In this document: piece after piece, positions 15,508 through 46,370 of the stretch
Position numbering within the stretch: position 1 is the stretch's first letter
Layout: each line of letters opens with the position of its first letter
From: Phellopilus nigrolimitatus
Taxonomy: Eukaryota; Basidiomycota; Agaricomycetes; Hymenochaetales; Hymenochaetaceae
Length of the DNA stretch: 64,000 bases
Assembly (NCBI GenBank): GCA_021029095.1
Contig: JAJOHG010000031.1
Span: 62,001 to 126,000, forward strand
Direction of reading: 5' to 3'
Notes under the pieces: generated by a model
Told to the model about the DNA's origin: nothing
Seen by the model: only the letters and a program-made list of their open reading frames with translations
The model's database searches: none
Position numbers and translations under genes: made by a program

Positions 15508-18500
15508 TCAGGCCCTTCGAATGAACCCCGACGCTCGCCAATTCTCAACCCATGTCTTCACATTCACCTGCCCCAGTTGTGGTACTTCGCGCAGCGTCGT
15601 CGACGCTGCTTCAGCGCGCTCGAATCGCAGCGCGGTCCCAAGTGCCTCCACGGTCTTTTCACTCACGCGCGTCATGGTTCCCTCCGCTGCGCGGAAGAAG
15701 CCGTACAGCCGCAGCGCCGGGTTGTTCCCGTGCGCCTCCGACACCGCCTCCGCGCTCGGCGTACCGCCGGAGTACAGTTCATTCTGCGCCGCCTCGAGAG
15801 CGGAAAGCCAAGTGGAATACGGCACGCGAGGCAGGCTGAGTACGTCTGAGAACGCAGATATGACGGTGGACCACGGGACGGGCCTCGGGTGCACAAGGTT
15901 CACCGTGAAGTCGTGCGCGTGCAGCATGTCGACGACCGCCCCTCCCGCGTCGTGTGCAGTGAGCCACGACACAACCTGCAGGACAAGGAGCGAGCAAACA
16001 ATTAGAGGGAAATCTGCGGACTAGCAGAGACAACTCACCCCGGTGGCATCCGGCAGCATTCCCAGCGCGATGCTCGACTTGATCAGGCTCGGGAACCATT
16101 CGTGCGTGTTCCATGCACCACTCGGACCACCCGTCATCTGCCCGCAGCGCACCACCGTCGCGCTCAGCGGCGTCTTTTCGGTCGCAACCTGCAGGATATG
16201 CTCGGACACCCACTTCGACTCGGTGTACCCAGTGCTGATTGCAGTGTCCGGCGTCGAAAGCGGCTCTTCTGGTCCAGGCTCATCCTTGGACCACTCTAGT
16301 TTAGAAGAGAGTAAGGACCTGAAAGCACGAGGGGCCGAGAAATATACGGACTGCTGAACACCCCGATGGAGCTGATAAAGAGTACGCGCGCTGGCGTCGC
16401 CCCATGACCACCAAGAGCGAAGTCGATGAAGTTGCGCACGCTCCTGATATTCGATTCGAAGGAGGTGACCGCGACATTGAAATTGACTCTCCAACCTGAT
16501 CAAACAGTCGAGCATAAGTATCGAGAAGATCTTCCCTTGTCTATTAATCAAATAATTTACCGTTGTGGATGATATGCGTCACCGAGGATTGCAACTGGAG
16601 GTTGATGAGCTTACTCTCCATTCAGACGAAACAGTCGAGCACCTTACCTCGGCAAATAGCTTTGCGTCAATGGCAAAATCGGCGTGCCCCGCGTCTCCGT
16701 CCACGAAACTCACTCTCGCATCGTCCAGGAGCTGGACGTCCAAGCTCTCCCTCTCGAAAGCCTTCGCATGTCTCTCCTTTACCGAAACACCATCGGAAGA
16801 CGGGCGCGACATTGCGTACACACGCGTGACCGCCTTGTTCTGGATGAGTTTCGCCAGAATATTCGACCCGAGCGAGCCCGTGCTTCCAGTGAGCAGGACA
16901 GCATCCCCGTTCCCATCGTTTCCTGATCCCGCACCTGCGACGAATGTGGGGAAGGCCGTCGTGTACTTCGCAACGAGCGCCTCTAGTTCGCGTGCCTTCG
17001 CGCGCGCGTCCCCTGCAGGGGCGACCGAAGTACCCGAGACGCTCGAAGACAAATACTCCGCGAGGCGCGCGATGGTGGGGTAGTCGTATATGAATGTCGC
17101 GGAGAGTTTGCGCGCGACGCCTGCGTGCGAGTCGCGTAGAACGCGGAGGACGGTGTTGCGTATCCAGGTCGCTTGGAGACTGAAAACGAAACTAAACAGT
17201 AATCCAGAGAAATCACTAAGTCCTCGCCGTACCTGTCCAGTCCATGTTCAAATAAATCTGCATCATCAGCAACCGCCCCGTTTTCTTTTTTCATCGTCTG
17301 CAGGACGATCTCCCTCACAAACTCCGTGACCTGCGGCTGAGACCAGTTTTCCGGACCCACGATGTTATCCTGCGCGCTCTCATCGACCGCTTTATATGCA
17401 GCTTCGATTTCGTCGTCATATTCCTTGATGGTAACCTGACGGCGGACTGTGCCCTTTCCAGTGAGAGGGAACGGTTTAGAAGGTGAGGCAACGATAATCA
17501 TCTGCGAATATATCACGATGTCGGATTAAGCAACACAGCAGCTTTAAGAAATGGATGTACGCGCCTCTTTAAAAATCCGGGAGTGCGTTGGCGCAAACTC
17601 GTTCATTTTCTCGACCGTGGGCCTTCATAGATCGCAATTCTTATGTTTAACTGCTGAGATAAATGCATAGTCTCGAAAGTTACTCACCAAATACGATTTC
17701 TGAATTCAGCGAGCTTGTTAGTGTCCGCTGGATCGAATGCGTACAGCTCATCAGGCTGTACGAGGACGCCGCAATGGAAGCGTCCGCGCCCGAAAAAAAC
17801 AGCGTGGCTGACGAGTGGATCGCGGGCCAACATTTTCTCTATCCATCGAGATACGCGTTCAATAAAGCATCCGAAAATAAAGCATATAGACACACCTAGT
17901 GGCCCGGGGTTCGTCTTCTCGCCCGTTGAGTGCATGATCTGGTCATCCGTACGACCGACGACCTTCCAATACCCTGGCTTCGTCGGGTGCGGAGAGAGGA
18001 GGTCGCTCGTTGCGTATCCATCCCGCCCGTTAATCTTCGTGTTGATGACGTTCGGACGGTAGAAGTCCGTCGCCTATAAAAAGACAAAAGAAAGGGAGGA
18101 ATGGTTTGCTGAGTCACGCGAATGTTCGGAATGATAGTAATAAATAGATCGTACGAGAAAGACGAGCTCAAACTCGTTATTACCGTAGTCGATGAAGTGG
18201 GCATCCCGGTTGGGACAAATCTTAAAGTAATCGCAATCCGCGCCACCCAGAGCTAAGCAGGAAAGACAATCAAGCTCACTTGTATGTTATACTTCACCAA
18301 ACTGTAGAACAGACGTACTATGTAAGAATTCATTGACAATCATGGTTTCCGTCCTGGACAAGTAGCCTGAGTCAGATGGCTGAAAGGAAGAAGTGAATAA
18401 AACGATATCTCACGATCCATATAGTGTGTATAGGGCGACGCCCTTCGAAGAAAGATGGCTGCTAGCTTCTTTACTAAGAGGTCCACCTCCATAGGTCTGC

Positions 18501-19813
18501 ATATCATGTTCTTCAAGGTGGTCGAGAAATCGAGGCACACAAACTTACGACTCCTTTCATCTTTGCTAATACTTCAACGTAGCGAGACTCGTGCGACCAA
18601 GTCTGAAAGGGTAAGCTAAACGTAAGCGTTGTAGCAATACAAATACACCACTGACCTCCGGGAAAGTCGGCGTAGAAAATATATAATCGCATTTAGAAGA
18701 TATTGCGCTTTCCATGAAGTTTACCGGATTTGGTACGGTGGGCGGAGACTGAGGTTTGAAAACTGCAGCTACAGCACCACATACAGCCTATAAGGCGAGA
18801 AACAAATTGAGTTAAAATACATTGCTGTATAAAAGAAGCCCAAAGAAAAACGCACAGTATTCAGCAACACGAACATGCCCATGGCATGGAACATGGGTGC
18901 AGCGTGGCACGCCCAGGTAGTTCCGGCGGTATCTTTTTCTCCAAAACCTACGTCGGTCGGTTAGTCACCACCTGGTCGTCAGGGCTTCGAACGAGGTCGA
19001 TCACTTACACATCGCACCAACAGTCCAAATTGTTGCTCGATGAACGAAGATAATGGGCTTCGGGAACGCAGTTGAGCCTGATGACATACAGCTCGTGAAC
19101 CACGGACCACAAAACCAAGGCAGGGATGTATTACCTGAGGAATGGAAGATCACAGCAGGAGCATCCATGTCGATTTCGGCCAACGGCTCGGGTGTAAAAG
19201 ACGGATCGAATCCTTTTACGGGGTAAAGGTCCTCAAAGACCGGCAACTTGTGCTTCTTAACAGTATTATCGACAGAGAGCTCCTTCAGAGCAGCGTCCGC
19301 AAGGTGTTGCATGGACGAGTCGGCCGAGACGAAGATGTGCGCGGTTTTAGTCTGCGTGAGGAGCGTGGTGACCGCAGCCGGGCTATTGCGCGTGGAAATG
19401 GGAAAAACCGTCCAACCAGTTCGCATAACTCCGATAAGGAGGCTGGCGAATGTAATGGTGTCTGAAGGCGTCGAGTGAGATTCGGAAAACGAAAGCGTGT
19501 CTTTCGCAGTTCACAAACCAGCTGAAGCGAGGACGGCGACCACTGGTGCCTTCCCGTCGCTGCTCGAAGCGGGAGGGTTACCGATGGCTTTCCGCACAAA
19601 GCGAGTCGCGCGGTGTACGCCTTGCACGTTCTCCTCCCAGAGTATCGTCCTTTGTGATCCTGGCTCATCTTCATAGACGAACACGGGGTGCTTCGGAGAG
19701 TGCTCAGCCTGCCAGTCGTATATCGCGGGAAGGCTCAGAGATTCGTCGAGTGGAGGCTGAGTGAACGTTGCACTTTGGAGGCCATGCCTCCTGGGTATAA
19801 CGAGCGGAGACAT
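15508..19813 (-). CDS. A-T-R carboxylic acid reductase, NRPS-like (copy C, end of module 1)
   Basis: Third full A-T-R synthetase, read leftward from 19813 (MSPLVIPRRHG) to a TGA at 15508-15510. An in-frame ATG six codons upstream (MKITPEM, 19831) is an alternative start also present in copy E. Motifs in order: HSSGSTAFPKP across the intron near 19130-19075, a YGSTE-type box, GRTDDQIMHSTGEK near 17940, LTGKGTVRRQ near 17460, FEHGLDSLQ with a split Ser codon near 17230, GSTGSLGSN near 16890, and GYTESKW near 16220. All predicted joins are in frame. It closes module 1 on the minus strand, downstream of the unrecognised gene and reductase 1. Its final exon is close to A and D, while its intron near 16650 matches that of B. 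Confidence 0.87.
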
Positions 19814-20094
19814 TTCCGGAGTGATCTTCATGCATTGCGCTGACGCTTTATAAACCCAGCCTCCGCCTCGTAAATGGATTTTCGTACAACAGTCAAATCG
19901 CGGCCGAAGAAACAGGGGTCCACAATGCGCAACCAAGTAACGTCACCGAGGACCGAGATATGGGAGTAGTTTAGTCAGTCGGCACTACGAAGTGTGCCAT
20001 GGTTCTCGGGCGAAGCGTTAGAGCGTGGTAGTAAGAAGAGATTTAGGGTTGCTATCGATGGAACATGGCTGACCCGAAGTTTTGAGCGCTGCAC
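19814..20094 (-). promoter_or_regulatory. promoter region of synthetase C, shared with E
   Basis: Closely matches 45690-45957 upstream of E, including TTTATAAA at 19847-19854 and AGTCGGCCGACTAAACTACT-like sequence. The match shows that module 3 once carried the same synthetase promoter. Confidence 0.6.
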
Positions 20095-20774
20095 TGTGCG
20101 TTACGTAATTTAACACATTAGGATAAAAGTATTGATGCGTACCAGCGAGCGCTGAGTACACATGTACGTATCCATCCTTTTTTGCTTTCTCTCTTCTCCG
20201 CTTTTTTCTGAGCGCGTTTGACTCAAATTCACAGGACAGGATGGTAGACTGAAATTTAGTACTAAACCGCCCTTTTTCAGCACATCTTTGGCTACACACG
20301 CCTGCATGGATTGCACACATCACGAGGACAGATGTGCGGAAATGGTGGCTTCTGCATCTTCCGCTCGAAGTGGTCTCGCTTTCTGTGCTCCCTCGCGACA
20401 TGCGGTTCTTGCCATAGCCTCTCAGGAGGCTCCGCGAAAGCTCAGAGCAAGATGCTGAGCCCCAAAATCGACTTAATCTGATCATCCAAGTCTTCTCGAT
20501 TCTGCCGCCGACCCAGTATAGGAAGAGCCAAATGGACTTCGGACTTGGCGCATCAAACTTGCGCGATTATCAGCTTTCATCGTCAGCTCGGTGGTCAATC
20601 AGATTTTTTGCCTCAAGCCCGCTCGCTTCCATTGTCTGAGTGCCCAATGCTCTCAATCTCTGAAAGATGGACTCTGTGGCGCTGGCGAGGAAAGCTTTCT
20701 GCGATTTCTGCTATGAAGCCTCATCGCCAATATGGTCTATTATTTGAATGCACGATAGATGTGCAGACCCGGAT

Positions 20775-20966
20775 TCATGGTCTTCGGTAGTAGTCCTGCC
20801 CGACGTCCCCGACGTCCACGTCAGACGAGTCCTCCATTACAGAGTTCTCAGAGTCGGACGTGAAGCCAACCTGGGAGTAAATCTGGTGGGCATGCACAGT
20901 GTCGTCGGGATGGATCTGGTCCTGACGTCGTGAACATCGGTTCTGCATGTCTATTCTATGACGCAA
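20775..20966 (-). CDS. small conserved ORF, unrecognised (module 1 copy)
   Basis: A 63-residue frame (MRHRIDMQNRCSRRQDQIHP at its start, VGDVGQDYYRRP at its end). Module 2 has a collinear frame at 37736-37927 with mostly conservative changes, and module 3 keeps only the last 20 residues or so (44925-44987). Conservation may simply reflect recent duplication. No known domain is recognised, and whether it is translated or an exon of a larger transcript is unclear. Confidence 0.3.
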   Translation of the reverse strand: MRHRIDMQNRCSRRQDQIHPDDTVHAHQIYSQVGFTSDSENSVMEDSSDVDVGDVGQDYYRRP

Positions 20967-21446
20967 CCGAAATTATCTGAGAAAACTTAGGACTGAGCAA
21001 CCCACAAGAAGACGTTGAGAAAATAAGCAGCTCACTATAAACAAAAAAAGAGCGCGAACGCTATGAGCTCGTGCCCGAGTTCGATTGAACCTGCACTGTG
21101 AGCCAAGTGAAGTAAAGCCCCCCCCAAAAAGACAAGATAGATAACGATGAAAGGAAAGCGAGTGACTTGAGATGCTTTCCTTTTGGAAAGAGTGAGGATG
21201 AAGTAACGCTTCAGCCTTCGCTGTCCCTGGGTGGTGATAGAACGACAAGGAATGGGTCAAATCAGAATACATGTACATGTACGCTGACATTATTAAGCTT
21301 TGATCACGTGACAATCACAGCCGACTTCTTGTCCAAAAACGTCCACGTTATCACAATGATTCACATTGACATCCGTTTTCCTACACACTCATTGTCTACA
21401 TACTAGAAACACACCAATAAACACCTTTCTATCGCCAGCAGTTCGT

Positions 21447-22797
21447 TCACCACCCGCGCGCCTTCAGATTCTCGATACTGTCCTTTGCCGTCGATTTCTT
21501 GTCATGGAACTCGATCCCGAGCACCGTTCTCGCCTTCGCACTGCTGTACCAGGATTTGTACTCGAAGTCCTTCCCAGCGCCCGGCGTGCCAGTGGGCACA
21601 GTGAGCCCTGGGAGCTTGAGTTCGTTCGCCGCGTCGACTGCAAGCCAAGCGCGTCAGTCCGCGTTGTAACGGTCAGAGCAGAGTGGAAGTCGAAAAACAC
21701 GTACGCCAGTCCTGCCAGATGAACGGTCCAGCGGACAGGATGAAGCGCTGCCCTCCCACCTCGGGCACCTCGAGCGCGCGCACGTGGCCGAGCGCGACGT
21801 CGCGCACGTCGACCCACGAGCCCTGCATCTCCGCAAGCTCCTCCGGCGTCTTCTTCTGCGTCAAGATCGCCTCGTAGAAAAGCGCGACGCTGCTGTTCAG
21901 CGCAGCGGGCGATGATACTTCGTGTAGGATCGGGCCGAAGACCTTATAGACGAGTTAGGAAGGACAAGAAAAGGAGAAGTGAGGGACGTACGAATGGCGG
22001 GTTCAGCGCAACGAGGTCCCATGAAATCTCGGACTTGTGTTTCTCGGCGAACTCCCACGCGGCTGGAACTTTAGGTCAGAGGAGGTTTCACAAGGCGCGC
22101 GAGGCGCTGCGGACACACCCTTTTCGGCGAGCGACTTCGACGCGCAGTACTTGGCGGCCTGTCCCGCGGCGCGGCCCTGCGCGCGCACCTCCGCGATGCT
22201 CTCCTCGTTCCACCTGCGCTCATCGAGCTCCCCGCGGTCCGAATCATTTATGATTGACGCGCATGAGGACAGTACCGCGATGCGCCTCAGCTGTGGACCG
22301 CTGTCGTGTGCAGAAGAGAAAGGACGCGATAAGGTTTGTTCACTTTGGGGACAAAGGGGGAATAGAGGGAATAAGTGCTCACGCGTGCTTCAGCGCAGAC
22401 TCGAGGATGCCGACCGTGCCCTTCACGGCGGGCTCGATGACATCTGTGGGTGGATGCGACGGCAATGTCAGCCGTGCGACTCTCTCCGTCGGGAGTGCCA
22501 CTCACCATTTGGGTCGTCCGCGTTGAAATGGAACGGCGACGCGGTGTGCGCGATCGCGTCGACGCCCTGCACGGCCGCGTCGAACGCGCCCGGCTTCGTG
22601 ATATCCGGCACCTCGACGATCTCGAGCTTGTCCCCGTGCGCCTTGAAGAGGTTGCGTATATGTGTGGCCTTACTCTCCGCGCGCACGGTGCCACGCACGC
22701 TGTATCCGCGCTCGAGGAGGTCCTGCACGAGCCACACCGCGATGAAGCCGTTCGCGCCGGAGACGAGTACCTTGGCTGGTGCTGCGATGGCGGGCAT
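21447..22797 (-). CDS. NAD(P)-dependent reductase, extended SDR (module 1, intact)
   Basis: A spliced gene read leftward from MPAIAAPAKV (22797) to TGA at 21447-21449. It starts with a Rossmann motif, VSGANGFIAVWLVQDLLERG, and carries YCASK, the YxxxK catalytic pair, near 22155. Other conserved blocks are AHTASPF, VVLSS-like AVLSS, NPPFVFGPIL across an intron, and VDVRDVALGHVRALE. This is the layout of the dihydroflavonol-4-reductase / cinnamoyl-CoA reductase / Gre2-like group, which reduces aldehydes or ketones with NADPH in the cytosol. Five or so introns sit at the same places in the three module copies. All joins keep frame. It lies between the acidic-protein gene and synthetase C, and would suit reduction of an aldehyde released by the synthetase; that link is an inference. 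Confidence 0.82.
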
Positions 22798-23476
22798 TTC
22801 TGATTCTTCGTAGATTTGGTCGTGGGTTATTGGAAGTTGGAATATGGGACGGATGAGCTTCGAGCCTTTTTATGTGCTGAGAAATTTAAGGAAATTAATA
22901 ATGGTAGCAGTATGTACCTATATAGAAGTATGCTTACTTTGTATAGTACAGTCATTTACCGGGACACCGAATCGCCATTGCGAGTTCAACATTGCGAGTT
23001 CAAAATGTTGTGTCGTTTTCGAGTTGCCGATTTCTCATCCCTGCCTTCGAAGAACTCCTAATATCGGTATGAATGTTTTACTACACACAATGCGAGGCTC
23101 CCGACACCGAGCTCATACTCTGTAAAATTCCTCTCGGTCTCGCTTCAGTTGGAGTAAGTACTTTGAAAATGCCTTAACCAACTTATTTTTACCAATAGCT
23201 TTCCTCCATGGTGGAGTTATATCTCGTAAGACGATTTGTGGCATGAGCTACTCGCTCCCAACGGGGAGGAAATGAGTATTAGCCTATGCCGGACGATAGC
23301 GTATAATCCTGCCAGAACGATATATGCAAGATAGATTGTTCTTAGAGAATACCTGTCGACCTAATCTGGATATGTAGATTAGAAAGAGAAGTCGATTATT
23401 GCGTAGTCGGAGTCGGAGGAGCCATTGTGCTCGGAGCTTGCGGGTGTACAGACGTCATTACAGCGACGTCATTATA

Positions 23477-23786
23477 CAAATGGTCAGAAAAATGGGTCAG
23501 AAAAGTCTTCCCCCCCCCCCCCCCCCCCTTCCTCTAAAAAAGGAAGGCGGCTCTCGTCTGCCTTATTCAGAAAAAAAAAAGTGAAGTTTGATTGTTCATA
23601 ATGTATCCAGACGCATATTATATGTAAACAATATGTTCTTGCTGATTGTTCTTTGCGTGAGTTGAGCTGGCAGCATACCATAGACAATAGTGAGGGACAA
23701 CTCGACGACGCGGCATCGTTTGCTACGCAGGCGGTAACCGTGTTCCTTTTTCACGGGGCGGGGGGAAGACTTTTCTGACGTACCTG
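23477..23786. mobile_element. TA-flanked miniature inverted-repeat element, copy 1
   Basis: A 310-bp insertion with terminal inverted repeats built on GTCAGAAAAGTCTTCC, flanked by TA (23475-23476 and 23787-23788). The sister modules carry the uninterrupted site: the reverse complement of 35.25-35.28 kb reads GTCATTATAGCAAAGAGC. TA duplication and CA(G)-type ends suggest a Tc1/mariner-pogo type miniature element. It has no coding capacity. A 19-C run follows the left terminus. Confidence 0.85.
23510..23528. repeat. poly-C run (19 C)
   Basis: Homopolymer just inside the left inverted repeat of the miniature element. Copy 2 has only seven to eight C here, so the tract has expanded. Confidence 0.9.
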
Positions 23787-24516
23787 TAGCAAAGAGCACA
23801 CTTTACATACTTAATATGCAGAAGGGATTTTGCTAGCATGGAACATTGAAAATTGTCAGGATCAAGGTTGATAATGTCTCTCTGGATTTTCTTCAGCGCT
23901 AAAATTCTAATGCCATTGCCAGTCTCTTGCACTCGGATGGCGTAAGTTTATTGCTCACTCACTTCGCCGTACGGACTAAATGGACACCTCTTTGGGAGCA
24001 AAGGCAAATTTATCACTAGCATGGCTATCATATAGTTTTTGATGAACTCGGCGAGACATCATAACGAAACAAAAGAAATAAGAGAGTTTGGGAGGTTTCA
24101 TTGGTCCTGGAACGTTGCAATCGGGTCATAAAGACCGCCCGCATTGAATTGGACGCAGACAATTCCGCTGCAGAGAATATGTGTAGACAAGTCGCGAACT
24201 TTGATAGCTGGTTAGTCACGCCACCGACGATCCAGCGGAGTGCGATTCGGCACGTCGGCGTGGACGCCCACTATAAATGAACCAACTCATTCTAATTACT
24301 GTTTCCGCATGTCCCATACGCCTTTGATGAAAGTTTTTGGTATTTGGCGAACACACTCGAATTGAAATAATCTAGCTCGTGCAGCTTGATGTACTCAATG
24401 GACTTCAGGAACTAATCGATCTTTCAGACGTGGTCGTCCAATACGTGCGGACTACATCTATACTGCATCCTTGTCTTTGGCCCATCATTCAAAGACGAAC
24501 TTTTCTGGAGTCCCTG

Positions 24517-25789
24517 CTACTCGTACCACACCTCGCTCTCGTCTTCCGACTCGGAGTCCGTCTCCGTCTCGGATTTCAACTGATGATGTAGGATATACAT
24601 CCGAAAGCAACTTTCGATCTGCTGCGATAATGGTATACATACGTTAGTCTCATAGCGATCTTTGCAAAGCTCCGTTGCTCACTCGAAACGTCCTATCGAT
24701 CCCAGCGTTGGTCCGCCACTCGTTGTGGAGCGTGTCGCGCACCTCGCGCAGTCTCTCGACGGCCATCTGCGTCTGCTCCTCGTACTCAGGCGCGCAGATA
24801 TCGATGCCCGCGTACTCGAAGAGGGTCTTGAAGACGTCAAAGATGCCGGCGCGGTGCATCTCTTCTGTGTACCTGTCTACGACAGTGTTGACGATGCTGC
24901 CGTCGAAGATACCTACTCGCACGAGCTGTCCGACGAGCGCGACCTTGGCGTGGCCGAGCTCCAAGTGCGCTTCGGGATCCTTGAAGATATGGACTCGGTA
25001 CGTCAGCAAGCGCGTCATGTAACATTCGAATTTGCTTACCTTTTCCCACCATTGGTCTAAATCATCTAGGACGAGGGTGCGTATGGTCTCCTTTGCCTTC
25101 TCCGGATCAACGCCTGCCCTGACCTCCTCGATGACCTTCTGACATGCTATTATGACTGCTGCATATGACTCCTGACGGCAGTGCAATCCCTGAAGGACAT
25201 ACAGCAAGGGCATATCGGTGCTGTAGTCTTCGCGGAACCACGTTTCGAGGCCATCCGCATACTTGACACCTATTCTCTTGTTGTATCTCTTCAGGGAGAG
25301 CATGAGCGTCTCGTCGGTCTCCGGCGGCTCTTCGTCCTCACTTGATCCATCGTCGGACGCGTTTTCTATCTCTTCATTGTCGGCAACAACAAATTCACCG
25401 TCGAGAAAAAGACCATCGCTATCTGTTTCTCCATCGCTGATGTCCTCCTCGACGCTCCCGTCCGAATCCGTGGGTGGCTCATGGCTCGTCCTGCTACTCG
25501 CAGTGTTCCCACTATCTGCATAGTGGGTCCAACTGTTACTGTCGGACGTCGAGCCATCTGATCGTAGACCACCGATATGGCTGCGTGTGGCGGGGAGGGC
25601 GTTCGCACGCCGGGCAGCTGACAAGATGTGTACGGAACGGGCCATGTAAGTGCGGAGCTCGCTATTGATTTCGTGCGCAGGACGTGCGGCGAGGTTCGCG
25701 ACGCCGGAAGGCTGCTCGAGGGGTGGAGCAGGCTGTGCGTGGAAGACAGGCTGGTACAGCGGGATTTGGAGAGTCCGACGCGTCTCCAT
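24517..25789 (-). CDS. unrecognised acidic protein, module 1 copy
   Basis: ATG at 25789 (METRRTLQIPLYQPVF) leads into a Ser-rich then Asp/Glu-rich segment (SSEDEEPPETDE), then a helical-looking region with WFREDYSTDMPLLYVLQGLH and TIRTLVLDDLDQWWE. I infer a 60-bp intron (GTAAGC...TTCAAG, about 25040-24981), because the module 2 copy has a 49-bp version holding a stop that would otherwise break the frame. A second intron (donor GTGAGC near 24690, acceptor CATCAG near 24590) joins to the tail SETETDSESEDE ending WYE at a TAG at 24517. Without splicing, the frame ends soon after TFRVSNG. The later part (LGHAKVALVGQLVRVGIF) faintly recalls MIF4G-like helical repeats, which I would not rely on. 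Each module has one copy, between halogenase and reductase. Function is unknown. Confidence 0.6.
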
Positions 25790-25887
25790 GGCTGATAGTC
25801 GAGGCAGCGCTAATAGTGTGGCGCGACGAGGAGGCAAAGAGCGAGAGCGAGAGTCGACGTATGTGTTGTTGGTGGACGTGCGCGTTC

Positions 25888-35911: not shown

Positions 35912-37399
35912 ATGCCCGCCATCGCAGCACCAGCCAAGGTACTCGTCTCCGGCGCGAACGGCTTCATCGCGTGTGGCTCGTGCAGGACCTCCTCGAGCGC
36001 GGATACAGCGTGCGCGGCACCGTGCGTGCGGAGAGTAAGGCCACACACGTACGCAACCTCTTCAAGACGCATGGGGACAAGCTCGAGATCGTCGAGGTGC
36101 CGGATATCACGAAACCGGGCGCGTTCGACGCGGCCGTGCAGGGCGTCGACGCGATCGCGCACACCGCATCGCCGTTCCATCTCAACGCGGACGACCCGAA
36201 TGGTGAGTAGCACTCCCGACGGAGAGTCGCACGACTGACATTGCCGTCGCATCACCCACAGATGTCATCGAGCCCGCCGTGAAGGGCACAGTCGGCATCC
36301 TCGAGTCTGCGCTGAAGCACGCGTGAGCACTTATTCCCTCTATCCCCCTTTGCCCCCCAAGTGAACGAACCTTATCGCCTCCTTTCTCTTCTACACACGA
36401 CAGCGGTCCACAGCTGAGGCGCATCGCGGTGCTGTCCTCGAGCGTGTCTATCGTAAATGATTCGGACCGCGGGGAGCTCGATGAGCGCAGTTGGAACGAG
36501 GAGAGCATCGCAGGAGGTGCGCGCGAAGGGCCGCGCCGCGGGACAGACCGCCAAGTACTTCGCGTCGAAGTCGCTTGCAGAGAAGAGTGTGTCCGCAGCG
36601 CCTCGTACCCCTTGTGAAACCTCCACTGACCTAAGGTTGACGTGCATTCAGCCGCGTGGGAGTTCGCGGAGAAACACAAGTCCGAGATCTCGTGGGACCT
36701 CGTTGCGCTGAACCCGCCACTCGTGCGTCACTCACTTCTCCTTTTCTTTCCCTTTCTAACTCGTCTATAAGGTCTTCGGCCCGATCCTACACGAAGTATC
36801 ATCGCCCGCTGCGCTGAACAGCAGCGTCGCGTTGTTCTACGGGGCGATCCTGTCGCAGAAGAAGATGCCGGAGGAAGTCGCGAAGATGCAGAATTCGTGG
36901 GTCGACGTGCGCGAAGTCGCGCTTGGCCACGTGCGCGCGCTCGAGATCCCCGCGGCGGGAGGGCAACGCTTCATCCTGTCCGCTGGAACGTTCATCTGGC
37001 AGGACTGGCGTACGTGTTTTCCGACTTCGGCTGTGCTCTGACCGTTACAACACGGACTGACGCGCTTGGCTTGCAGTCGACGCGGCGAACGAGCTCAAGT
37101 TTCCAGGGCTCACTGTGCCCACTGGCACGCCGGGCGCTGGGAAGGACTTCGAGTACAACTCCTGGTACAGCAGTGCGAAGGCGAGAACGGTGCTCGGAAT
37201 CGAGTTCCGCGACAAGAAATCGACGGCAAAGGACAGTATCGAGAATCTGAAGGCGCAGTGGGTGGTGAACGAACTACTGGCGACAGAAAGGTGTCTATTG
37301 GTGTGCTTTAAGTATGTAGACAATGAATGTAAGAAAATGGATGTCAATGTGATAACGTGGACGTTTCTGGACAAGAAGTCGGCTGTGGTTGTCACGTGA
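35912..37399 (+). pseudogene. NAD(P)-dependent reductase, module 2 copy, frameshifted
   Basis: Collinear with the intact reductases at 21447-22797 and 43504-44861. One base is missing after GGCTTCATCGC at about 35969: the sister reads ATCGCAGTGTGG, here ATCGCGTGTGG. This breaks the Rossmann motif VSGANGFIA right after its start. A second shift, an extra base near 36511 (ATCGCAGGAGGTG against ATCGCGGAGGTG), lies before the YxxxK region. The 3' end also differs, since GCGCAGTGGGTGGTG reads through the stop used by the sisters. The gene is probably inactive. The damage is recent, since the rest is close to the intact copies. Confidence 0.75.
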
Positions 37400-37735
37400 T
37401 TAAAGCTTAATAATGTCAGCGTACATGTACATGTATTCTGATTTGACCCATTTCTCGTCGTTCTATCACCACCCAGCGACAGCGAAGGCTGAAGCGTTAC
37501 TTCATCCTCACTCTTTTCAAAAGGAAAGTATCTCAAGTCAGTCGCTTTCCTTTCGTCGTTATCTATCTTGTCTTTTTTCTTGGGGCTTTACTTCACTTGA
37601 CTCACAGTGTAGGTTCAATCGAACTCGGACACGAGCTCATAGCGTTCGCTCTCTTTTTTGTTTATAGTGAGCTGCTTATTTTTGCAACATCTTCTTATGG
37701 GTCGGTCAGTCCTAAGTTTGCTCAGATAATTTCGG

Positions 37736-37927
37736 TTGCATCATAGAATAGACATGCAGAACCGACGTTCACGACGTCAGGACCAGATCCATCCCGACGG
37801 CACTGTGCATGCCCACCAGAGCTACTCCCAGGTTGGCTTCACGTCGGACTATGAGCACTCGGTAATGGAGGACTTGCCTGATGTGAACGTCGAGGACGTC
37901 GGGCAGGACTACTACCGAACACCATGA
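37736..37927 (+). CDS. small conserved ORF, unrecognised (module 2 copy)
   Basis: 63 residues (MHHRIDMQNRRSRRQDQIHP at its start, VEDVGQDYYRTP at its end), collinear with 20775-20966 on the minus strand. No domain recognised. In module 3 a deletion of about 540 bp removes all but its last 20 residues or so. Confidence 0.3.
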   Translation: MHHRIDMQNRRSRRQDQIHPDGTVHAHQSYSQVGFTSDYEHSVMEDLPDVNVEDVGQDYYRTP

Positions 37928-38659
37928 ATCCGGGTCTGCACATCTATCGTGCATTCAAAAAATAGGCGATGAGGCTTCATAGAAGAAGTCTCCTCACCAG
38001 CGCTACAGAGTCCATCTTTCAAAAATTGAGAGCATTGGGCATTCAGCCAAGGGAAACGAGCGGGCTTGAGGCGAACAATCTGTTTGACCACCGAGCCGAC
38101 AATGAAACCGCAATCCTGATGCGCCAAGTCCGAAGTCCATTCGGCCCTCCAGTACTGGGTCGGTGGCAGAATCGAGAAGACTTGGATGACCAGATTAAGT
38201 CGATTTCGGGGCTCAGCATCTTACTCTGAGCTTTCGCGGAGCCTTCTGAGAGGCTATGGCAAGAACCGGATGTCGCGAGGGAGCATAGAAAGCAAAACCA
38301 CTTCGAGCGGAAGATGCAGAAGCCACCAATTTCGCACATCTGTCCTCGTGGTGTGTGCAATCCATGGTGTAGCCAGAGATGTGCTGAAAAAAGGGCGGTT
38401 TAGTACCAAGTTTCAGTCTACCATCCTGTCCTGTGAGCTTTGAATTTGAGTCAAACGCGCTCAGAAAAAAAGCAAAGAAGAGAGAAAGCAAAAAAAAAAG
38501 GATGGATACGTACATGTACTCAGCGCTTAACGCTTCAGCCACCTTCTCGCTGGTACGCATCAATACTTTTTTCTTAATGTGTTTAATTACGTAACGCACA
38601 GCGGTCAACACGAGGGTAGAGTGAGATCACGGAAAAATTGGCCGGTTGCGACGGATCAC

Positions 38660-39375
38660 ACACAAAAAATGAATAGAGTTGGGGAGACATTGAGCACACG
38701 AGCAGCTGCTTGAACATCATCCTGATCGTGTACGTATAACGAATGGCCTGCTCAACAACAACCCAATTTGCCTGCATGCAATTTGCACCTGTACGATGCA
38801 GAAAGGCTAGACGAAGCCGTACACGGAGTTTATATGAGGCGGGGAGTCTTGAGAGGGAAAAAGAAAATAGCGCAGAGATAGCACATACGGGAAAAAGAGA
38901 AAGAAACATTGAGCTGTCATTCTTTTTTTTTTGGACTTGGGGGCGGAATTTCGGTGATCCCGCCTCCGCGGGCGCGCCGTCGGACACGATGCTGCCCGAG
39001 TGGACACACCAACAGGCGGACTAGGCACTCGTTTTGCGCAGTGCACAGTGATGAGAGAAGAAGAAAAAAAACCGCCCATATGCATCTTCCGTGCACAAAT
39101 CGCGTTCCCGAGCCTTTTTGGTTTTTCTTTCCGGTCCGTTATCTGTGTTGCGGGGCCTATCTACTGAGGATTCCTGGCGAAGCACCCGTTTGGGAAGACG
39201 CAAAGTACAATGCGGACTGATCCGTGGCGGCTGCCGTTATTTCTGCAGACAGCTGTGAGCGATTGTCGTACACACTGTGCGACGATGATACTCCGCAGCA
39301 GCAGCGGTGCGGATCAAACGTAAATCATATTCCATACGCGGAGGTCGATCCTCCGGCGCAGCCGTCGCCCCGCGC
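38660..39375 (+). repeat. Module 3 start: copy of the halogenase upstream region
   Basis: Direct copy of 28000-28790, ending near CTCCGGCGCAGCCGTCGCC. No halogenase follows. Confidence 0.75.
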
Positions 39376-39379
39376 AATC

Positions 39380-39835
39380 ATTTAACATAAGCAGAAAACC
39401 CGGTACAAATTTGATCCCGTAAGAAGACATCATGCGAAAAACAAGTTCGAGCAAGGACTGCGTTGTGAAAGTCAGAGGTTCTGGCACTTCGAGTACCCCC
39501 CCCCTCTCTCTTCAACAAGCGGCTCCTTCTTTTGAGAAGATAAGGAAAAAGAAAAGGTGCCTATTTAAATGCTTGTTGGAAGAAAGCGCAGAACAGCTGC
39601 AACATTCACCATTCACCATGTTGGCAAAGAGGAGCCAGAAAGAAGTGCGACTCAGATGCTTTAGTAATATGTACATGGTACATGTATACATGCAGTATAC
39701 GCGTGACGTAACGTGAACGATGAGCCACAATTCCTTCGGCGCTTTCCTTGTCCACACCTCTCTTTCAACTCCTCCTCAGATCTTCCCCGGTATCTTCGGC
39801 GAGGTGCCCGGTGATAATGCGTACGTTGCTTTGCC
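39380..39835 (+). repeat. inverted copy of 27655-28000, with the 110-bp block
   Basis: See 27655-28000. It occupies the place where module 2 has the halogenase, and its 3' part (39690-39835) is the fourth copy of the 110-bp block. Confidence 0.7.
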
Positions 39836-40322
39836 GCGTTTTCCGTAAGCGTAAGGTGTGATCAAAGGTAGCTCGGAGGATCACAAAAACGAAATGGCAA
39901 CTTCACGTTGGGTCGCTTGTTTGGACCTCGCGAGGAGTCGGAAAAGGCGGACAGACGACCCCTGCTTTCCTGGGTCGAAGCGCATTAGCAACTTCCATTG
40001 TGAAATTAGACTGCCGGTCTCGAATATGAGAGAGAGAGAGGAATTAGTGGTGTTTACCTGATAAAATACAGCGAAATTGTAAACTCCAGTCCACTCCGCA
40101 TGAGCGCCAGTCAACAATCAGCATAGGCTAACATGAAAAGCGAACAATGAACGGTCTAAGCGGCCGGCCAGAACGTGCCGACCATACAAGGCAGCCACAG
40201 CACAACGGTGTGGCTTATAAGACTGAACGCGCACGTCCACCAACAACACGCACGTCGATTCTCGCTCTCGCTCTTTGCCTCCTCGTCGCGCCACACTATT
40301 AGCGCTGCCTCGACTATCAGCC

Positions 40323-41567
40323 ATGGAGACGCGTCGGACTCTTCAAATCCTGCTGTACCAGCCCGTCTTCCGCGCTCCGCATGCTCCACCCCTCGAGCAG
40401 CCTTCCGGCGTCGCGAACCTCGCCGCACGTCCTGCGCACGAAATCAATAGCGAGCTCCGCACTTACATGGCCCGTTCCGTACACATCTTGTCAGCTGCCC
40501 GGCGTGCGAACGCCCTCCCCGCCACACGCAGCCATATCGGTGGTCTACGATCAGATGGCTCGACGTCCGACAGTAACAGTTGGACCCACTATGCAGATAG
40601 TGGGAACACTGCGAGTAGCAGGACGAGCCATGAGCCACTCACGGATTCGGACGGGAGCTTCGAGGACGACGACAGCGACGGCCTTTGGTCCGATGACGAA
40701 CCTGTTGTTGACGACAATGAAGAGATAGAAAACACGTCCGATGATGGATCAAGTGAGGACGAAGAGCCGCCGGAGACCGACGAGGCACTCATGCTCTCCC
40801 TGAAGAGATATTACAAAGCAATAGGTTTCAAGTATGCGGATGACCTCGAAACGTGGTTCCGCGAAGACTACAGCACCGATATGCAATTGCTGTATGTCCT
40901 TCAGGGATTGCACTGCTGTCAGGAGTCATATGCAGCAGTCATAATAGTATGTCAGAAGGTCATCGAGGAGGTCAGGGCAGGCGTTGATCCGGAGAAGGCA
41001 AAGGAGACCATACGCACCCTCGTCCTAGATGATTTAGACCAATGGTGGGAACAGGTAAGCAAATTCGAATGTTACATGACGAGCTTGCTGACGTACCGAG
41101 TCCATATCTTCAAGGATCCCGAAGCGCACTTGGAGCTCGGCCACGCCAAGGTCGCGCTCGTCGGACAGCTCGTGCGAGTAGGTATCTTCGACGGCAGCAT
41201 CGTCAACACTGTCGTAGACAGGTACACAGAAGAGATGCACCGCGCCGGCATCTTTGACGTCTTCAAGACCCTCTTCGAGTACGCGGGCATCGATATCTGC
41301 GCGCCTGAGTACGAGGAGCAGACGCAGATGGCCGTCGAGAGACTGCGCGAGGTGCGCGACATGCTCCACAACGAGTGGCGGACCAACGCTGGGATCGATA
41401 GGACGTTTCGAGTGAGCAACGGAGCTTCGCAAAGATCGCTATGAGACTAACGTATGTATACCATTATCGAAAGTCGCTTCCGGATGTATATCCTACATCA
41501 TCAGTTGAGATCCGAGACGGAGACGGACTCCGAGTCGGAAGACGAGGGCAAGGAGTGGTACGAGTAG
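40323..41567 (+). CDS. unrecognised acidic protein, module 3 copy (intact)
   Basis: ATG at 40323 (METRRTLQILLYQPVF), a Ser/Asp-rich region, WFREDYSTDMQLLYVLQGLH, TIRTLVLDDLDQWWE, an inferred 60-bp intron at about 41055-41114, LGHAKVALVGQLVRVGIF, then a second intron from GTGAGC (about 41412) to CATCAG (about 41503). The last exon encodes LRSETETDSESEDEGKEWYE and stops at TAG 41565. Compared with module 1 it lacks about six residues in the acidic stretch. Predicted size is about 385 residues; no signal peptide or membrane segment. The gene keeps a fixed place between halogenase and reductase in all modules, but a role in the pathway is only a guess from position. Confidence 0.6.
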
Positions 41568-43503
41568 CAGGGACTCCAAAAATGTTCGTCTTTGAATGAC
41601 GAGTCAAAGACAAGGACGCAGTATAGATGTAGTCCGCACGTATTGGACGACCACGTCTGAAAGATCGATTAGTTCCCGAAGTCCATTGAGTACATCAAGC
41701 TGCACGAGCTAGATTATTTCAATTCGAGTGTGTTCGCCAAATACCAAAAACTTTCATCAAAGGCGTATGGGACATGCGGAAACAGGAAATACATGTACGT
41801 AGAATCAATTGGATCATTTATAGTGGGCGTCCACGCCGACGTGCCGAATCGCACTCCGCTGGATCGTCGGTGGCGTGACTAATCCAGAGCACATCAAAGT
41901 TCGCGACTTGTCTACACATATTCTCTGCAGCGGAATTGTCTACGTCCAATTCACTGCGGGCGGTCTTTTTATGACCCGATTGCAACGTTCCAGGACCAAT
42001 GAAACCTCCCAAACTCTCTTATTTCTTTTGTTTCGTTATGATGTCTCGCCGAGTTCATCAAAAACTATATGATAGCCATGCTAGTGATAAATTTGCCTTT
42101 GCTCCCAAAGAGGTGTCCATTTAATCCATACGGCGAAGTGAGCGAGCAGCAAATTTACACCATCCGTGTGCAAGAGACTGGCATTGGAGTTTATACTGTG
42201 ATCTCGGTACGGATGCTTCTCGCCGGTACTCAAATTTGTAAAAAAAATTCTCAGAAGTCTTGAAATGGATCTGAAATATAATAGCGCTGAAGAGAATCTA
42301 GAGACACGTTATCAACCTTGATCATGACAGCATCTTGGAGCTCGACAATTTCGCTCTTTTTTTTCTCGTAGAGCGCCACGTTTGAGTGTACAAGAAATCG
42401 TATGTACACATCCCAGAGTCAATCGAAACTTGATTCTCTCAGCGATAGTCGTGGTCGGCAGTGATTTATAGGCACTACGTTTCTGAATCTCGATGCTGGT
42501 CAAGAACGCATGCTAGCAAATCCCTTCTGCACAATAGGTGTGTGCTATTTGCTATAATGACTTTGCTGTAACCCGGAAGCTCCGAGCACAACTAAAGGGG
42601 TGGCTTCTTTAACTCCGATCATGCAAAAATCGATTTCTCATTCTCATCTACAATTCAGAGGTCTTCTCTAAAAACAATCGATCTTGCATATATCGTTTTC
42701 CCATTTGTACTAACTATCGTCCGGCATAGACTTCGGAGCGAGTAGCTTTTGCCACAAATCGTCTTATGGAGAAAAGCTATTGGCAAAAATAAGTCGGTTA
42801 AGTCATTTTCAAAGTACTTACTCCAACTGAAGCGAGACCGAGAGGAGTTTTACCAATCGCATACAGAGTATGAGCTCGGTGCCGGGAGTCTCTCATTGCG
42901 TGTGGTAAAACGTTCATACCGATATTAGGAGTTCTTCGAAGGCAGGGACGAGAAATCGGCAACTCGAAAACGAAAAAAAAATGTCACAACACTTTGAACT
43001 CGCAATGGCGATTCGGTATCCCGGTGAATGACTGTACTATACAAAGTAAGCATACTTCTATATTAGAGTGTTCTCAAAGCTGATGAAAAATGCTTTTGCT
43101 AGTGAAAGATGGCACGATTCTAAGTTCACTCGGCAGTCAGATTGTATGCTGCCAACAGAATGGGTTTGTCTCGTCAAATTTCGGGCATGAAAGATAGGAT
43201 GTGAACAGTTATCTGCGGTGCTGAGATTCAGGATGTCCGTGTTCAACCCGGATAAGAGCCTTCGTCACGTCTCCGGTACCGAGAGGCTTCGGCACTTTCG
43301 GCAGCCTGCAGCTCGCTTAGAGCTAATGGAAAATGTAAGTTGCATTTGTGTAATATAAAACGCAGTTTCTATCAACTTTAAAAATACTATATTGCTACCA
43401 TTATTAATTCCTTGAATTTCCCAGCACATAAAAAGACCCGAAGCTCATCCGTTCCATGTTCCACGTTCCAATAACCCACGACCAAATCTAAGAAGAACCA
43501 GAA
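41568..43503. other. module 3 spacer
   Basis: Collinear with 34.38-35.91 kb. No gene seen. It contains a 321-bp insertion at 43065-43385. Confidence 0.6.
43065..43385. mobile_element. hAT-like miniature element in module 3
   Basis: A 321-bp insertion absent from modules 1 and 2, flanked by TCTATATT (43057-43064) and ACTATATT (43386-43393), an 8-bp duplication with one mismatch. The ends are imperfect inverted repeats: GTTCTCAAAGCTGAT on the left and ATTTTTAAAGTTGAT read from the right. An 8-bp duplication suits hAT elements. It has no coding capacity. A relative of its interior (GTCAGATTGTATGCTGCCAA, GTGCTGAGA, GGATGTCC) lies at 9829-9960. Confidence 0.65.
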
Positions 43504-44861
43504 ATGGCCGCCATCGCAGCACCAGCCAAGGTACTCGTTTCTGGCGCGAACGGCTTCATCGCAGTGTGGCTCGTGCAGGACCTCCTCGAGCGCGGATACA
43601 GCGTGCGCGGCACCGTGCGCGCGGAGAGTAAGGCCACACATATACGCAACCTCTTCAAGGCGCATGGGGACAAGCTCGAGATCGTCGAGGTGCCGGATAT
43701 CACGAAACCCGGCGCGTTCGACGCGGCCGTGCAGGGCGTCGATGCGATTGCGCACACCGCATCCCCGTTCCATTTCAACGCGGACGACCCAAATGGTGAG
43801 TGGAACCCCGACGGAGAGAGTCGCACGGCTGACATTGCCGTCGCATCCACCCACAGATGTCATCGAGCCCGCCGTAAAGGGCACGGTCGGCATCCTCGAG
43901 TCTGCGCTGAAGCACGCGTGAGCACTTATTCCCTCTATTCCCCCTTTGCCTCTCAGTAAACGAATCTTATCGCCCTTTTTCTCTTCTGCGCACGACAGCG
44001 GTCCGCAGCTGAGGCGCATCGTGGTGCTGTCCTCGAGCTTGTCTATCGCAAGTGATTCGGCCCACGGGGAGCTCGATGAGCGCAGGTGGAATGAGGAGAG
44101 CATCGCGGAGGTGCGCGCGCAGGGCCGCGCCGCGGGACAGCTCGCCAAGTACTGCGCGTCAAAGTCGCTCGCCGAGAAGGGTGTGTCCGCAGCGCCTCGT
44201 GCCCCTTATGAATTCTCCTCTGACCTAAAGTTGACGTGCATCCAGCCGCGTGGGAGTTCGCAGAGAAACACAAGTCCGAGATTTCATGGGACCTCGTTGC
44301 GCTGAACCCACCTCTCGTGCGTCCTTCACTTCTCCTTTTCTTGTCCTTTCTAACTCATCTATAAGGTCTTCGGCCCGATCCTACACGAGGTATCATCGCC
44401 CGCTGCGCTGAACAGCAGCGTCGGGCTTTTCTACGAGGCGATCCTGACGCAGAAGAAGACGCCGGAGGAGCTTGCGGAGATGCAGGCTCCGTGGGTCGAC
44501 GTGCGCGACGTCGCGCTCGGCCACGTGCGCGCGCTCGAGGTGCCCGCGGCGGGAGGGCAGCGCTTCATCCTGTCCGCTGGATCGTTCATCTGGCAGGACT
44601 GGCGTATGTATTTTCCGACTTCGGCTGTGCTCTGACCGTTACAACACGGACTGACGCGCTTGGCTTGCAGTCGACGCAGCGAACGAGCTCAAGCTCCCAG
44701 GGCTCACTGTGCCCACTGGCACGCCGGGCGCTGGGAAGGACTTCGAGTACAACTACTGGCACAACAGTGCGAAGGCGAGAACGGTGCTCGGGATCGAGTT
44801 CCGCGACAAGAAATTGACAACAAAGGACAGTATCGAGAGCCTGAAGGCGCGCGGGTGGTGA
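43504..44861 (+). CDS. NAD(P)-dependent reductase, extended SDR (module 3, intact)
   Basis: Spliced gene from MAAIAAPAKV (43504) to TGA at 44859-44861, about 335 residues. It has the Rossmann motif VSGANGFIAVWLVQDLLERG, AHTASPFHFNADDPN before intron 1 (about 43796-43856), IVVLSSSLSIAS, YCASK as the YxxxK catalytic pair near 44155, NPPLVFGPILHEV across an intron, and VDVRDVALGHVRALEVP. This family (dihydroflavonol-4-reductase / cinnamoyl-CoA reductase / Gre2-like) reduces carbonyl groups with NADPH. Reductases 1 and 3 end at the same RGW-stop, so that is taken as the true end. Upstream AGCACATAAAAAGAC supplies a TATA-like element about 75 bp before the ATG. Its neighbour downstream is truncated synthetase E. 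Confidence 0.82.
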
Positions 44862-44924
44862 ACGAACTGCTGGTGACAGAAAGGTGTTTATTGCTGTGCT
44901 TTTAGTATATAGACAATGAATTAG

Positions 44925-44987
44925 TAATGGAGGACTTGCTTGACGTGGACGTCGGGGACGTCGGGCAGGACGACTACCGGACACCAT
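44925..44987 (+). pseudogene. remnant of the small ORF (module 3)
   Basis: VMEDLLDVDVGDVGQDDYRTP, the end of the small ORF of modules 1 and 2. The DNA jumps from sequence matching 37316 directly to sequence matching 37855, a deletion of about 540 bp. Confidence 0.5.
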
Positions 44988-45957
44988 GAATCCGGGTCTG
45001 CACATCTATCGCGTATTCAAATAGTAGACCATGTTGGCGATGAGGCTTCATAGCAGAAGTCGCAGAAAGCTTTCCTCACCAGCGCCACAGAGTTCATCTT
45101 TCAAAAATTGAGAGCATTGGGCAGGCAGCCAAGGGAAACAAACGGGCGTGAGGCGAAAATCTGACTGACCACCGAGCCGACGAGCGCAAGCCTGATGCAT
45201 TTAGTCCGAAGTCCATTCGGCCCTCCTGTACTGGGTCGGTGGCAGAATCGAGAAGACTCGGATGACCAGATTAAGTCGATTTCGGGGCTCAGCATCATGC
45301 TCTGAGCTTTCGCGGAGCCTTCTGAGAGGCTATGGCAAGAACAGGATATCGCGAGGGAGCACAGAAAGCGAGACCACTTGAAACGGAAGATGCAGAAACC
45401 ACCATTTCCGCACATCTGTCTCGTGGTGTGTGCAATCCATAGAGGCGTGTGTACCCAAATATGTGCTGAAAAAGGGGCGGTTTAGTACCAAGTTTCAGTC
45501 TACAATCCTGTCCTGTGAGCTTTGAGATTGAGTCAAACGCGCTCAGAAAAAAGCGGAGAAGAGAGAAAGCAAAAGAAGGATGGATACGTACATGTACATG
45601 CATGTATGTATGTACTCAGCGATTAACGGTTCAGCCATCTTCTCACTGGTACGCATCAATACTTTTATCCTAATGCGTTAAATTACGTAACGCACAGCTC
45701 AAACTTTCGGGCAGCTATGTTCCATGGATAGCAACCCTAAATCTCTTCTTCTTACTACCCCCGCTCTAACGCATCGCCATGGCACACTTGTAGTGTCGGC
45801 CGACTAAACTACTCCCATATCTCGGTCCTCGGAGACGTTGGGCATTGTGGACCCCTGCCGCGATTTGACTATTGTACGAAAATCCATCTACAAGGCAGAG
45901 GCGGCAGTTCCTGGGTTTATAAAGCGTCAGCGCAATGCATGAAGATCACTCCGGAAA

Positions 45958-46370
45958 TGTCTACGCTCGTTATACCCAGGACCCAAGGCCTCGAAAATGC
46001 AACGTTCATTCAGCCTCCACTCGATGAATCTCTGGGCCTTCCTGCGATATACGACTGGCAGGCCGAGCATTCTTCGAAGCACCCCGTGTTCGTCTATGAA
46101 GATGAGCCAGGATCTCTAAGGACGATACTTTGGGAGGAGAACGTACAAAGCGCGCACCGCGCGACTCGGTTTGTGCGGAAAGCCATCGGTAATCCTCCCG
46201 CTTCGAGCAGCGATGGGAAGACACCAGTGGTCGCTTCAGCTGGTTTGTGAACTGCGAAAACACGTTTCTATTTTCCGAATCTCACTCGACGCCCTTCAGA
46301 CGATATTACATTCGGCAGCCTCCTCATCGGAGTTATGCGAGCTGGTTGGACGGTATTTCCCATCTCTCCA
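45958..46370 (+). pseudogene. truncated A-T-R synthetase (copy E, module 3)
   Basis: MSTLVIPRTQGLEN at 45958 (or MKITPEM at 45940) matches the N-terminus of C, with the shared TATA block 35-40 bp upstream. Exon 1 is open but lacks about three residues near its end (PVVASAG against PVVAVLASAG). After intron 1 the frame reads LHSAASSSELCELVGRYFPS out of phase and the match ends near 46370, within the second exon. From there the DNA resembles the downstream flank of the acidic-protein gene (compare 42010-42140). At most about 150 of some 1,085 codons remain, and the carrier and reductase domains are gone. Confidence 0.85.

Follow-up and report, generated by a model that had tools for sequence, protein, structure and literature searches.

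The wood-rotting hymenochaetoid fungus Phellopilus nigrolimitatus carries, on contig JAJOHG010000031.1 (here C235) of assembly GCA_021029095.1, a biosynthetic locus in which a module of about 7 kb is followed by an inverted second copy and a direct third copy. We analysed a window of 64,000 nucleotides of this contig (C235:62001–126000; window positions are prefixed w). The best explanation, to which we give a probability of about two in three, is an amplified cluster of genes for adenylation-thiolation-reductase (A-T-R) synthetases, a flavin-dependent halogenase, Gre2-like reductases and an O-methyltransferase, which has grown by inverted and direct duplication, has undergone gene loss and gene conversion, and probably makes a chlorinated aryl product. 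The assembly comprises 56.4 Mb in 635 contigs; the figures published for the species are given as 56.7 Mb and 14,792 genes (PMC10410303).

The three modules lie close to where the original prediction, made from the DNA letters alone, had placed them. Self-BLAST gave collinear blocks for all three, and none of 50 shuffled controls (module 2 in 3-base blocks) had any match at 1e-10. With gaps counted, module 1 (M1) matched the inverted module 2 (M2) at w20094–23464/38601–35262 (87.4%), w23849–26583/35064–32362 (87.6%), w26888–27126/32364–32162 (77.8%) and w27123–27587/32100–31611 (69.3%). M2 matched module 3 (M3) directly at w32940–34998/40133–42187 (87.5%), w35010–35782/42282–43064 (84.0%), w35776–37328/43387–44921 (91.1%) and w37862–38602/44924–45698 (85.1%). 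In a three-way alignment without gaps counted, M1 and M2 were 89.9% identical over 6,768 columns; the values for M1/M3 (86.8%, 5,853 columns) and M2/M3 (87.4%, 5,789 columns) take in poorly matching starts of 49–57%. Introns are collinear, as had been claimed: all five reductase copies examined keep the splice sites internal to the six exons. The term 'palindrome' proved too strong: arms 1 and 2 are inverted copies separated by a spacer of about 4 kb, which carries one intact halogenase (HAL). With arms that differ by 10–13% and lie on either side of such a spacer, the argument that so large a palindrome is unstable would hardly apply.

M1 continues into a full-length synthetase (S3), as predicted; for M3 the same claim falls short, because its synthetase breaks off after ~420 bases. 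Homology of M2 stops at w38602, without a synthetase. The proposed ancestral order of halogenase, acidic-protein gene, reductase and synthetase is supported by a 77-bp halogenase scrap in M1, at the right place and in the right orientation. A scrap also occurs in a mirror copy of the locus described below (w27523–27645 in the window, C235:5470–5592 in the mirror). That the arms differ by indels and transposons holds for a ~307-bp insert resembling a miniature inverted-repeat transposable element (MITE), which in M1 faces an empty site in M2. A 0.6-kb segment adjoins the halogenase at w28009–28614, and its copy between M2 and M3 is flipped relative to its module (M1 versus M3). Outside the locus and its mirror, the genome DNA search gave only short matches of 71–72% to this segment. 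In that search, queries of 9.9 and 10 kb missed their own source and queries of 1.45–8 kb recovered it; all statements of absence rest on the latter, and since only the best candidates were scored, copy counts are lower bounds.

When the six-exon map of reductase R1 was projected onto the copies, four of five frames were open (R1, R1′, R3 and the allele of R3 on a second contig, haplotig C103; primes mark copies in the mirror) and R2 was disrupted. The same proportion held for the acidic gene (open in A1, A1′, A3 and the A3 allele, disrupted in A2). Both failures sit in arm 2, which is not being preserved and is no working module. Substitution rates (Nei–Gojobori, custom script) gave a synonymous rate (dS) of 0.13 and a nonsynonymous-to-synonymous ratio (dN/dS) of 0.27 for R1/R3, and 0.05 and 0.65 for A1/A3; the lower dS of the acidic pair relative to the reductases may reflect exchange. 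Judged by the reductases, the triplication is therefore not fresh. The earlier alternative, that the structure is either recent or kept by selection, is not supported, given this R1/R3 value, the broken reductase and acidic genes of arm 2, an M3 synthetase of which only the start is left and an M1 halogenase reduced to a scrap. The inner inverted repeat is real, decaying and, judged by its reductases, not recent.

R1 is homologous over nearly its full length to solved members of the Gre2/aldehyde-reductase group of extended short-chain dehydrogenases/reductases (SDRs), namely CgKR1 (5b6k, 1.1e-54), GRE2 (4pvc, 2.7e-54) and aldehyde reductase II (1ujm, 1.6e-36). Elsewhere in the assembly, a reductase paralogue forms an inverted pair on C131 (positions 20104–25670, loci L027 and L028; 99.9% over 2,755 bp), which may be an artefact of fold-back or a palindrome of recent origin. 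On C589 and C323 (L020–L025), related reductases stand in collinear arrays that are 89.5–93.5% identical over three stretches of ~4 kb; the two contigs are possibly strongly diverged haplotypes. DNA relatives of the acidic gene, at 71–72%, were found on C102, C603 (two) and C65.

The repeated field is wider than the original prediction described: it includes four full-length synthetases inside the window, and the region from about −10 to 32 kb is mirrored at C235:1–44 kb. Ten near full-length A-T-R copies were counted in C235:1–156 kb, with one more on C57. The gene finder was rough, synthetase exon ends are uncertain, and antisense models over true genes were disregarded. All five synthetase models scanned have the A-T-R domain order PF00501, PF23562, PF00550, PF07993, and GLDSLQ and the GYxESKW motif occur in 12 of 12 models. 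Nine A-T-R motif patterns are complete in six of nine Phellopilus models (one of the nine being on C57); the other three lack one, one and four patterns, possibly through faulty gene models. We take GLDSLQ, YxESK and the A-domain core to have active-site roles. The S1′ model has 18 exons, whose lengths all recur in S1, S3, S3′ and the S5 allele on C103; 17 of 18 recur in S2, S2′ and S5, and copies Sb, Sc and Smid deviate in three, two and two exons.

The synthetase copies have a mosaic make-up. S1 and S2′ are 66–80% identical at alignment columns 0–2400, 79–90% at 2400–3900 and 69% thereafter. Smid passes from S5-like (91–97%) to S3′-like (95–98%, columns 2700–3600) near column 2700, with a maximum chi-square of 307, and Sc is S5-like (91–92%) at columns 2100–2700, compared with 65–76% before and 74–84% after. 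In seven of seven triples, none of 500 shuffles reached the observed maximum chi-square; the triples were picked after inspection of the similarity painting, and the result is descriptive. The pattern seen in these alignments points to exchange of tracts among synthetases by gene conversion or unequal recombination, mostly in the thiolation-reductase half. In a tree, eight C235 synthetases and the C57 copy form one clade (100/100) apart from Coniferiporia and Phellinidium sequences; four Phellinidium synthetases form a separate clade (100/99), and another three A-T-R proteins of Phellopilus are not part of the Phellopilus clade. Such per-genus clades would be expected from separate amplification, or from concerted evolution within each species.

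The closest solved structure to HAL is the phenol halogenase RadH (8gu0, E 5.6e-145, 487 bits), followed by CmlS at 119 bits. The flavin adenine dinucleotide (FAD) motif (GGGPGG at residue 27), WxWxIP (WAWLIP at residue 253) and KKxGAAFK were all found in HAL, and the first two motifs also occur in all four Hymenochaetales relatives checked; we take GxGxxG and WxWxIP to be FAD-binding and halogenase motifs. Among the matches listed, the closest non-self relative is a Coniferiporia protein (71%). In an unrooted tree of 35 sequences hand-chosen from 120 listed matches, with Hymenochaetales as the only basidiomycete order, 12 Hymenochaetales sequences group on a branch by themselves (100/97), separate from 23 ascomycete sequences. 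A recent acquisition of the halogenase from within the ascomycetes is not supported by this topology. HAL and its mirror copy HAL′ differ at four nonsynonymous and 17 synonymous sites (dN/dS 0.08). The coding GC content of HAL is 74%, and 96% at third codon positions (GC3). Taken with the O-methyltransferase the ranges are 73–74% and 0.90–0.96; S1′ and A1 have 57% and 0.67–0.68, and R1 64% and 0.84. An NCBIfam profile scan returned below-cut-off matches only.

Table 1. Features of the Phellopilus nigrolimitatus window, with strand and the basis of each assignment.
Feature	Window position	Strand	Basis and remarks
O-methyltransferase gene, 3′ end	w1–85	+	model C235:59778–62085; mirror copy C235:33136–35374; PF00891, PF08100
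S1, A-T-R synthetase	w4544–8840	+	gene model, Pfam, motifs
S2, A-T-R synthetase, end approximate	w10521–14850	+	gene model, exon lengths, Pfam
S3, A-T-R synthetase downstream of M1	w15508–19831	-	gene model, exon lengths
M1, inverted-repeat arm 1	w20094–27647	-	self-BLAST, three-way alignment
R1, reductase, intact, six exons, Gre2/aldehyde-reductase-type extended SDR	w21447–22797	-	gene model, Pfam, structure match
A1, acidic orphan protein gene, open frame	w24517–25789	-	gene model; no Pfam
MITE-like insert in M1, ~307 bp	w26582–26891		missing from M2 (empty site w32362/32364); other genome copies exist
Halogenase remnant in M1	w27571–27647	-	89.6% to w30987–31063 (opposed as 31063–30987)
HAL, halogenase, intact, RadH type	w29588–31630	+	gene model, Pfam, RadH structure match, motifs
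M2, inverted-repeat arm 2	w31611–38602	+	self-BLAST, three-way alignment
A2, acidic gene copy, frame changes and stops	w33117–34320	+	exon map
R2, reductase copy, frame changes and stops	w35912–37399	+	R1 exon map projected onto copy
0.6-kb segment between M2 and M3	w38685–39266	+	78% to w28009–28614
M3, direct copy of M2	w39367–45698	+	self-BLAST, alignment; haplotig C103 covers from w39768
A3, acidic gene, open frame	w40323–41567	+	gene model, exon map
R3, reductase, intact	w43504–44861	+	gene model, exon map
Truncated synthetase after M3	w45873–46366	+	5′ flank and first ~420 bases (w45948–46366), self-BLAST
Insertion, 4.17 kb, heterozygous, transposon-like	w46889–51062		missing from C103; adjoins (GTA)n run
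OPT oligopeptide transporter gene	w51543–54764	-	gene model, PF03169
S5, A-T-R synthetase with flanks	w57757–62344	+	99.9% identical in haplotig C103

Just past the right end of the window, a FAD-dependent oxygenase-like gene (C235:132937–135131) possibly belongs to the cluster. A likely housekeeping gene for an RNA-binding protein, recognised by eye only, lies at C235 142.8 kb.

The locus is itself part of a larger mirror. C235:1104–35276 is the reverse complement of C235:93940–59945 at 95.4% with gaps counted, and after a gap of mobile elements the match continues inward at 90.7–91.9% (C235:39363–44139/56751–51927). Overall, C235:1–44139 mirrors 51927–93940 (in window terms, from before 1 to ~31940), giving arms of 42–43 kb around a centre of 7.8 kb; this centre (C235 44.2–51.9 kb) is unmirrored and carries its own synthetase copy. 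Mismatch is patchy in the main part, at 0–9% per kb. Neither these patches nor the identity of M1 to M2 has the homogenised character of Y-chromosome palindromes. A simple fold-back of one read was rejected as the cause of the mirror, given the level of identity, the insertions and the unmirrored centre. The left mirror copy holds M1′, HAL′ and the first kilobase of an inverted module, which ends at the first base of the contig. A 516-bp element with terminal inverted repeats (C235:42–558; 94–99% to eight other copies among the matches listed) interrupts arm 2 in its mirror copy, and the window has the empty site near w32605.

This mirror bears directly on whether the inner repeat is an assembly product. 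The junction of M1, halogenase and inverted module was assembled twice on the same contig, in copies that differ by ~5%, so the M1/M2 repeat is not a single misjoin. M1 and M2 were also rejected as alleles of one locus, each mirror copy having the junction with both orientations. Contigs do end inside modules (C235:1 and C103:1), a sign that the assembler struggled here. An artefactual M1/M2 repeat, made by joining separate loci or haplotypes, is nevertheless very improbable: both junction copies have the halogenase scrap in M1, each has M1 and at least the start of the inverted module, and in the reductase region M1 is 93.6% identical to M2 and 98.6% to M1′. The original judgement that an artefact is unlikely holds for these arms, to which its own refuting scenario of two nuclear haplotypes does not apply. 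The judgement was incomplete, as it could take account neither of the larger mirror nor of the presence of both haplotypes, and that scenario may still apply to C235:1–44 kb/52–94 kb.

Several observations suggest that the assembly probably contains both nuclei and that the strain would be dikaryotic. Haplotig C103, which replicates M3, starts at w39768 and over the 26 kb compared runs alongside C235 at 99.1–100% in four aligned pieces, insertions apart. Of 19 kilobase bins, 17 differ by at most 0.3%; the remaining two, at w42–44 kb beside and in R3, differ by 1.3% and 2.7%. Clean insertions with target-site-like flanks occur both ways, with 4.17 kb in C235 only and 1.5 kb and 0.79 kb in C103 only. 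The 4.17-kb insertion, which looks like a heterozygous DNA transposon, holds an open gene model (w47594–48781) with no Pfam match. Homeobox_KN, which we take to be the HD1 type, gave six matches, two each on C50 and C1 and two near-equal ones on C59 and C24. For comparison, two HD1 genes are described in one strain of Inonotus hispidus whose mating type is known (PMC12858565). The reciprocal insertions and the paired Homeobox_KN matches are the reasons for placing both nuclei in the assembly.

We slightly favour a reversed join of the other nuclear haplotype as the origin of the outer mirror. At E 0.001, with all 9 candidates scored, the search for the halogenase gave two copies, both on C235, and none elsewhere. 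For the queried part of the O-methyltransferase, the mirror was the sole match among the 40 candidates scored of 193. Such numbers are expected with one copy per nucleus. The mirror also reaches the first bases of the contig and ends at the equivalent of w32648, so that mirror and C103 together cover the greater part of a second haplotype and leave a gap of ~7 kb over M2. Against such a join stand the unmirrored centre and the ~4.6% difference of the mirror (gaps counted), far above that of C103. However, other allelic-looking contig pairs range from 99.3–99.5% (C101/C110) to 89.5–93.5% (C323/C589), and since they span 89.5–99.5%, a value of 95% between alleles is not out of range. The phase-specific similarity of M1′ to C103 versus C235 M3 carried no haplotype signal. 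A somewhat less probable alternative is a real nested palindrome on one chromosome, with an M1-halogenase-inverted-module unit in each arm; it would have arisen by a second inverted duplication of breakage-fusion-like type and been homogenised in patches by arm-to-arm gene conversion. The patchy reverse alignment, the greater divergence of the mirror than of C103, the centre with its own synthetase and a ~240-bp repeated element adjoining the junction all agree with this alternative. The two haplotypes in the assembly, the two-copy genes and the tiling speak against it, and the junction at 51.2–51.8 kb turned up in no other contig (38 of 73 candidates scored). A further extension, that a nested palindrome in one nucleus serves as a recombination engine in which mirrored synthetases trade thiolation-reductase halves and keep distinct adenylation domains, is doubtful.

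Returning to the amplified, decaying cluster, selection might instead maintain the repeats, either for gene dosage or to allow conversion between the arms. In favour of this, the genes left intact include HAL, R1, R3 and several of the synthetases, dN/dS is low for HAL/HAL′ and R1/R1′ (0.12 for the latter), and synthetases exchange tracts. We consider it improbable, as arm 2 has no intact reductase, acidic gene or synthetase and the M3 synthetase is truncated. Some observations also tell against our best explanation. The M2–M3 junction (w38.6–39.8 kb) is seen once, because C103 begins at w39768. The mirror replicates arm 2 itself only in part: C235:1–44 and 1029–1111 fit M2 at 96% and 92%, 555–1032 aligns to M2 at 79% across numerous gaps, and 555–841 fits M1 and M1′ equally well at 80–81%. 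Constraint on the acidic gene looks weak (dN/dS 0.55–0.65); the homologues of A1 among the matches listed were two, both from Phellopilus on a 1.24-Mb contig, and the window copies were not among them, so this gene may not be a working part of the module. Finally, no polyketide synthase or other source of an aryl acid was recognised by eye among the rough models of C235:1–156 kb, in which no family search was made.

The course of events that we infer would begin with an ancestral module of halogenase, acidic-protein gene, reductase and A-T-R synthetase. Head-to-head copying would have produced module 1, halogenase and module 2, and a further copy in direct orientation module 3. M1 would have lost its halogenase; M2 its synthetase, with its reductase and acidic gene broken; and M3 its halogenase and most of its synthetase. 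This would leave intact one halogenase, two reductases and several synthetases, the last multiplying in the lineage and swapping tracts by gene conversion or unequal recombination. In the predicted pathway, the A-T-R enzyme would activate an aryl acid and reduce it to the aldehyde, a Gre2-like reductase would convert the aldehyde to the alcohol, the RadH-type halogenase would chlorinate a phenol ring position and the O-methyltransferase would cap the product.

The products are probably chlorinated aryl aldehydes or alcohols, because this enzyme set, with its pairing of a nonribosomal peptide synthetase (NRPS)-like reductase and a flavin halogenase, parallels AscB/AscD of the ascochlorin–ascofuranone cluster. 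In Acremonium egyptiacum, the NRPS-like reductase AscB and the flavin-dependent halogenase AscD are described as leading to ilicicolin B and then ilicicolin A (PMC8235479). Several relatives of HAL are named ascD. The ascomycete cluster differs in having a polyketide synthase and a prenyltransferase, neither of which was recognised by eye in C235:1–156 kb, whereas Phellopilus has about ten A-T-R reductase copies plus Gre2-like reductases. HAL likewise resembles the phenol halogenases RadH and Rdc2 in structure match and motifs, but the Hymenochaetales sequences form a branch of their own. ArmH1–5 of Armillaria are described as a case of basidiomycete chlorination with gene redundancy (PMC9144378); likened by description and not by sequence, they differ in that halogenases are multiplied there and A-T-R reductases here. 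For the genome structure, collinear blocks forming inverted duplications within scaffolds, as substrates of gene conversion, are described in Folsomia candida and, as cited there, Adineta vaga (PMC5490193). Those animals are parthenogenetic, whereas the Phellopilus assembly probably holds both haplotypes of a dikaryon and its outer mirror may be a join. The Adineta palindromes were reportedly later doubted as assembly effects. Among the papers listed in our literature searches we found no direct precedent in fungi for a palindromic gene cluster and none naming such cluster genes, which is no proof of absence.

The locus is a legible example of how a fungal metabolic cluster grows and decays through segmental duplication, inverted as well as direct, and its exchange tracts gather in one half of a modular enzyme. 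It also calls for caution: in assemblies of dikaryons, a mirror structure can come from joined haplotypes. Should the recombination engine be true, the fungus would be reshuffling substrate specificities while keeping one common catalytic framework for its chlorinated aryl metabolites. Chlorinated anisyl and drosophilin-type compounds are made by hymenochaetoid fungi. As a large source of chloromethane, Phellinus is named in the literature (PMC6299022). With its halogenase, aryl-acid-type reductase, alcohol reductase and O-methyltransferase, the cluster of this hymenochaetoid wood-rotter is a candidate for the making of chlorinated aromatics, for example of the anisyl type.

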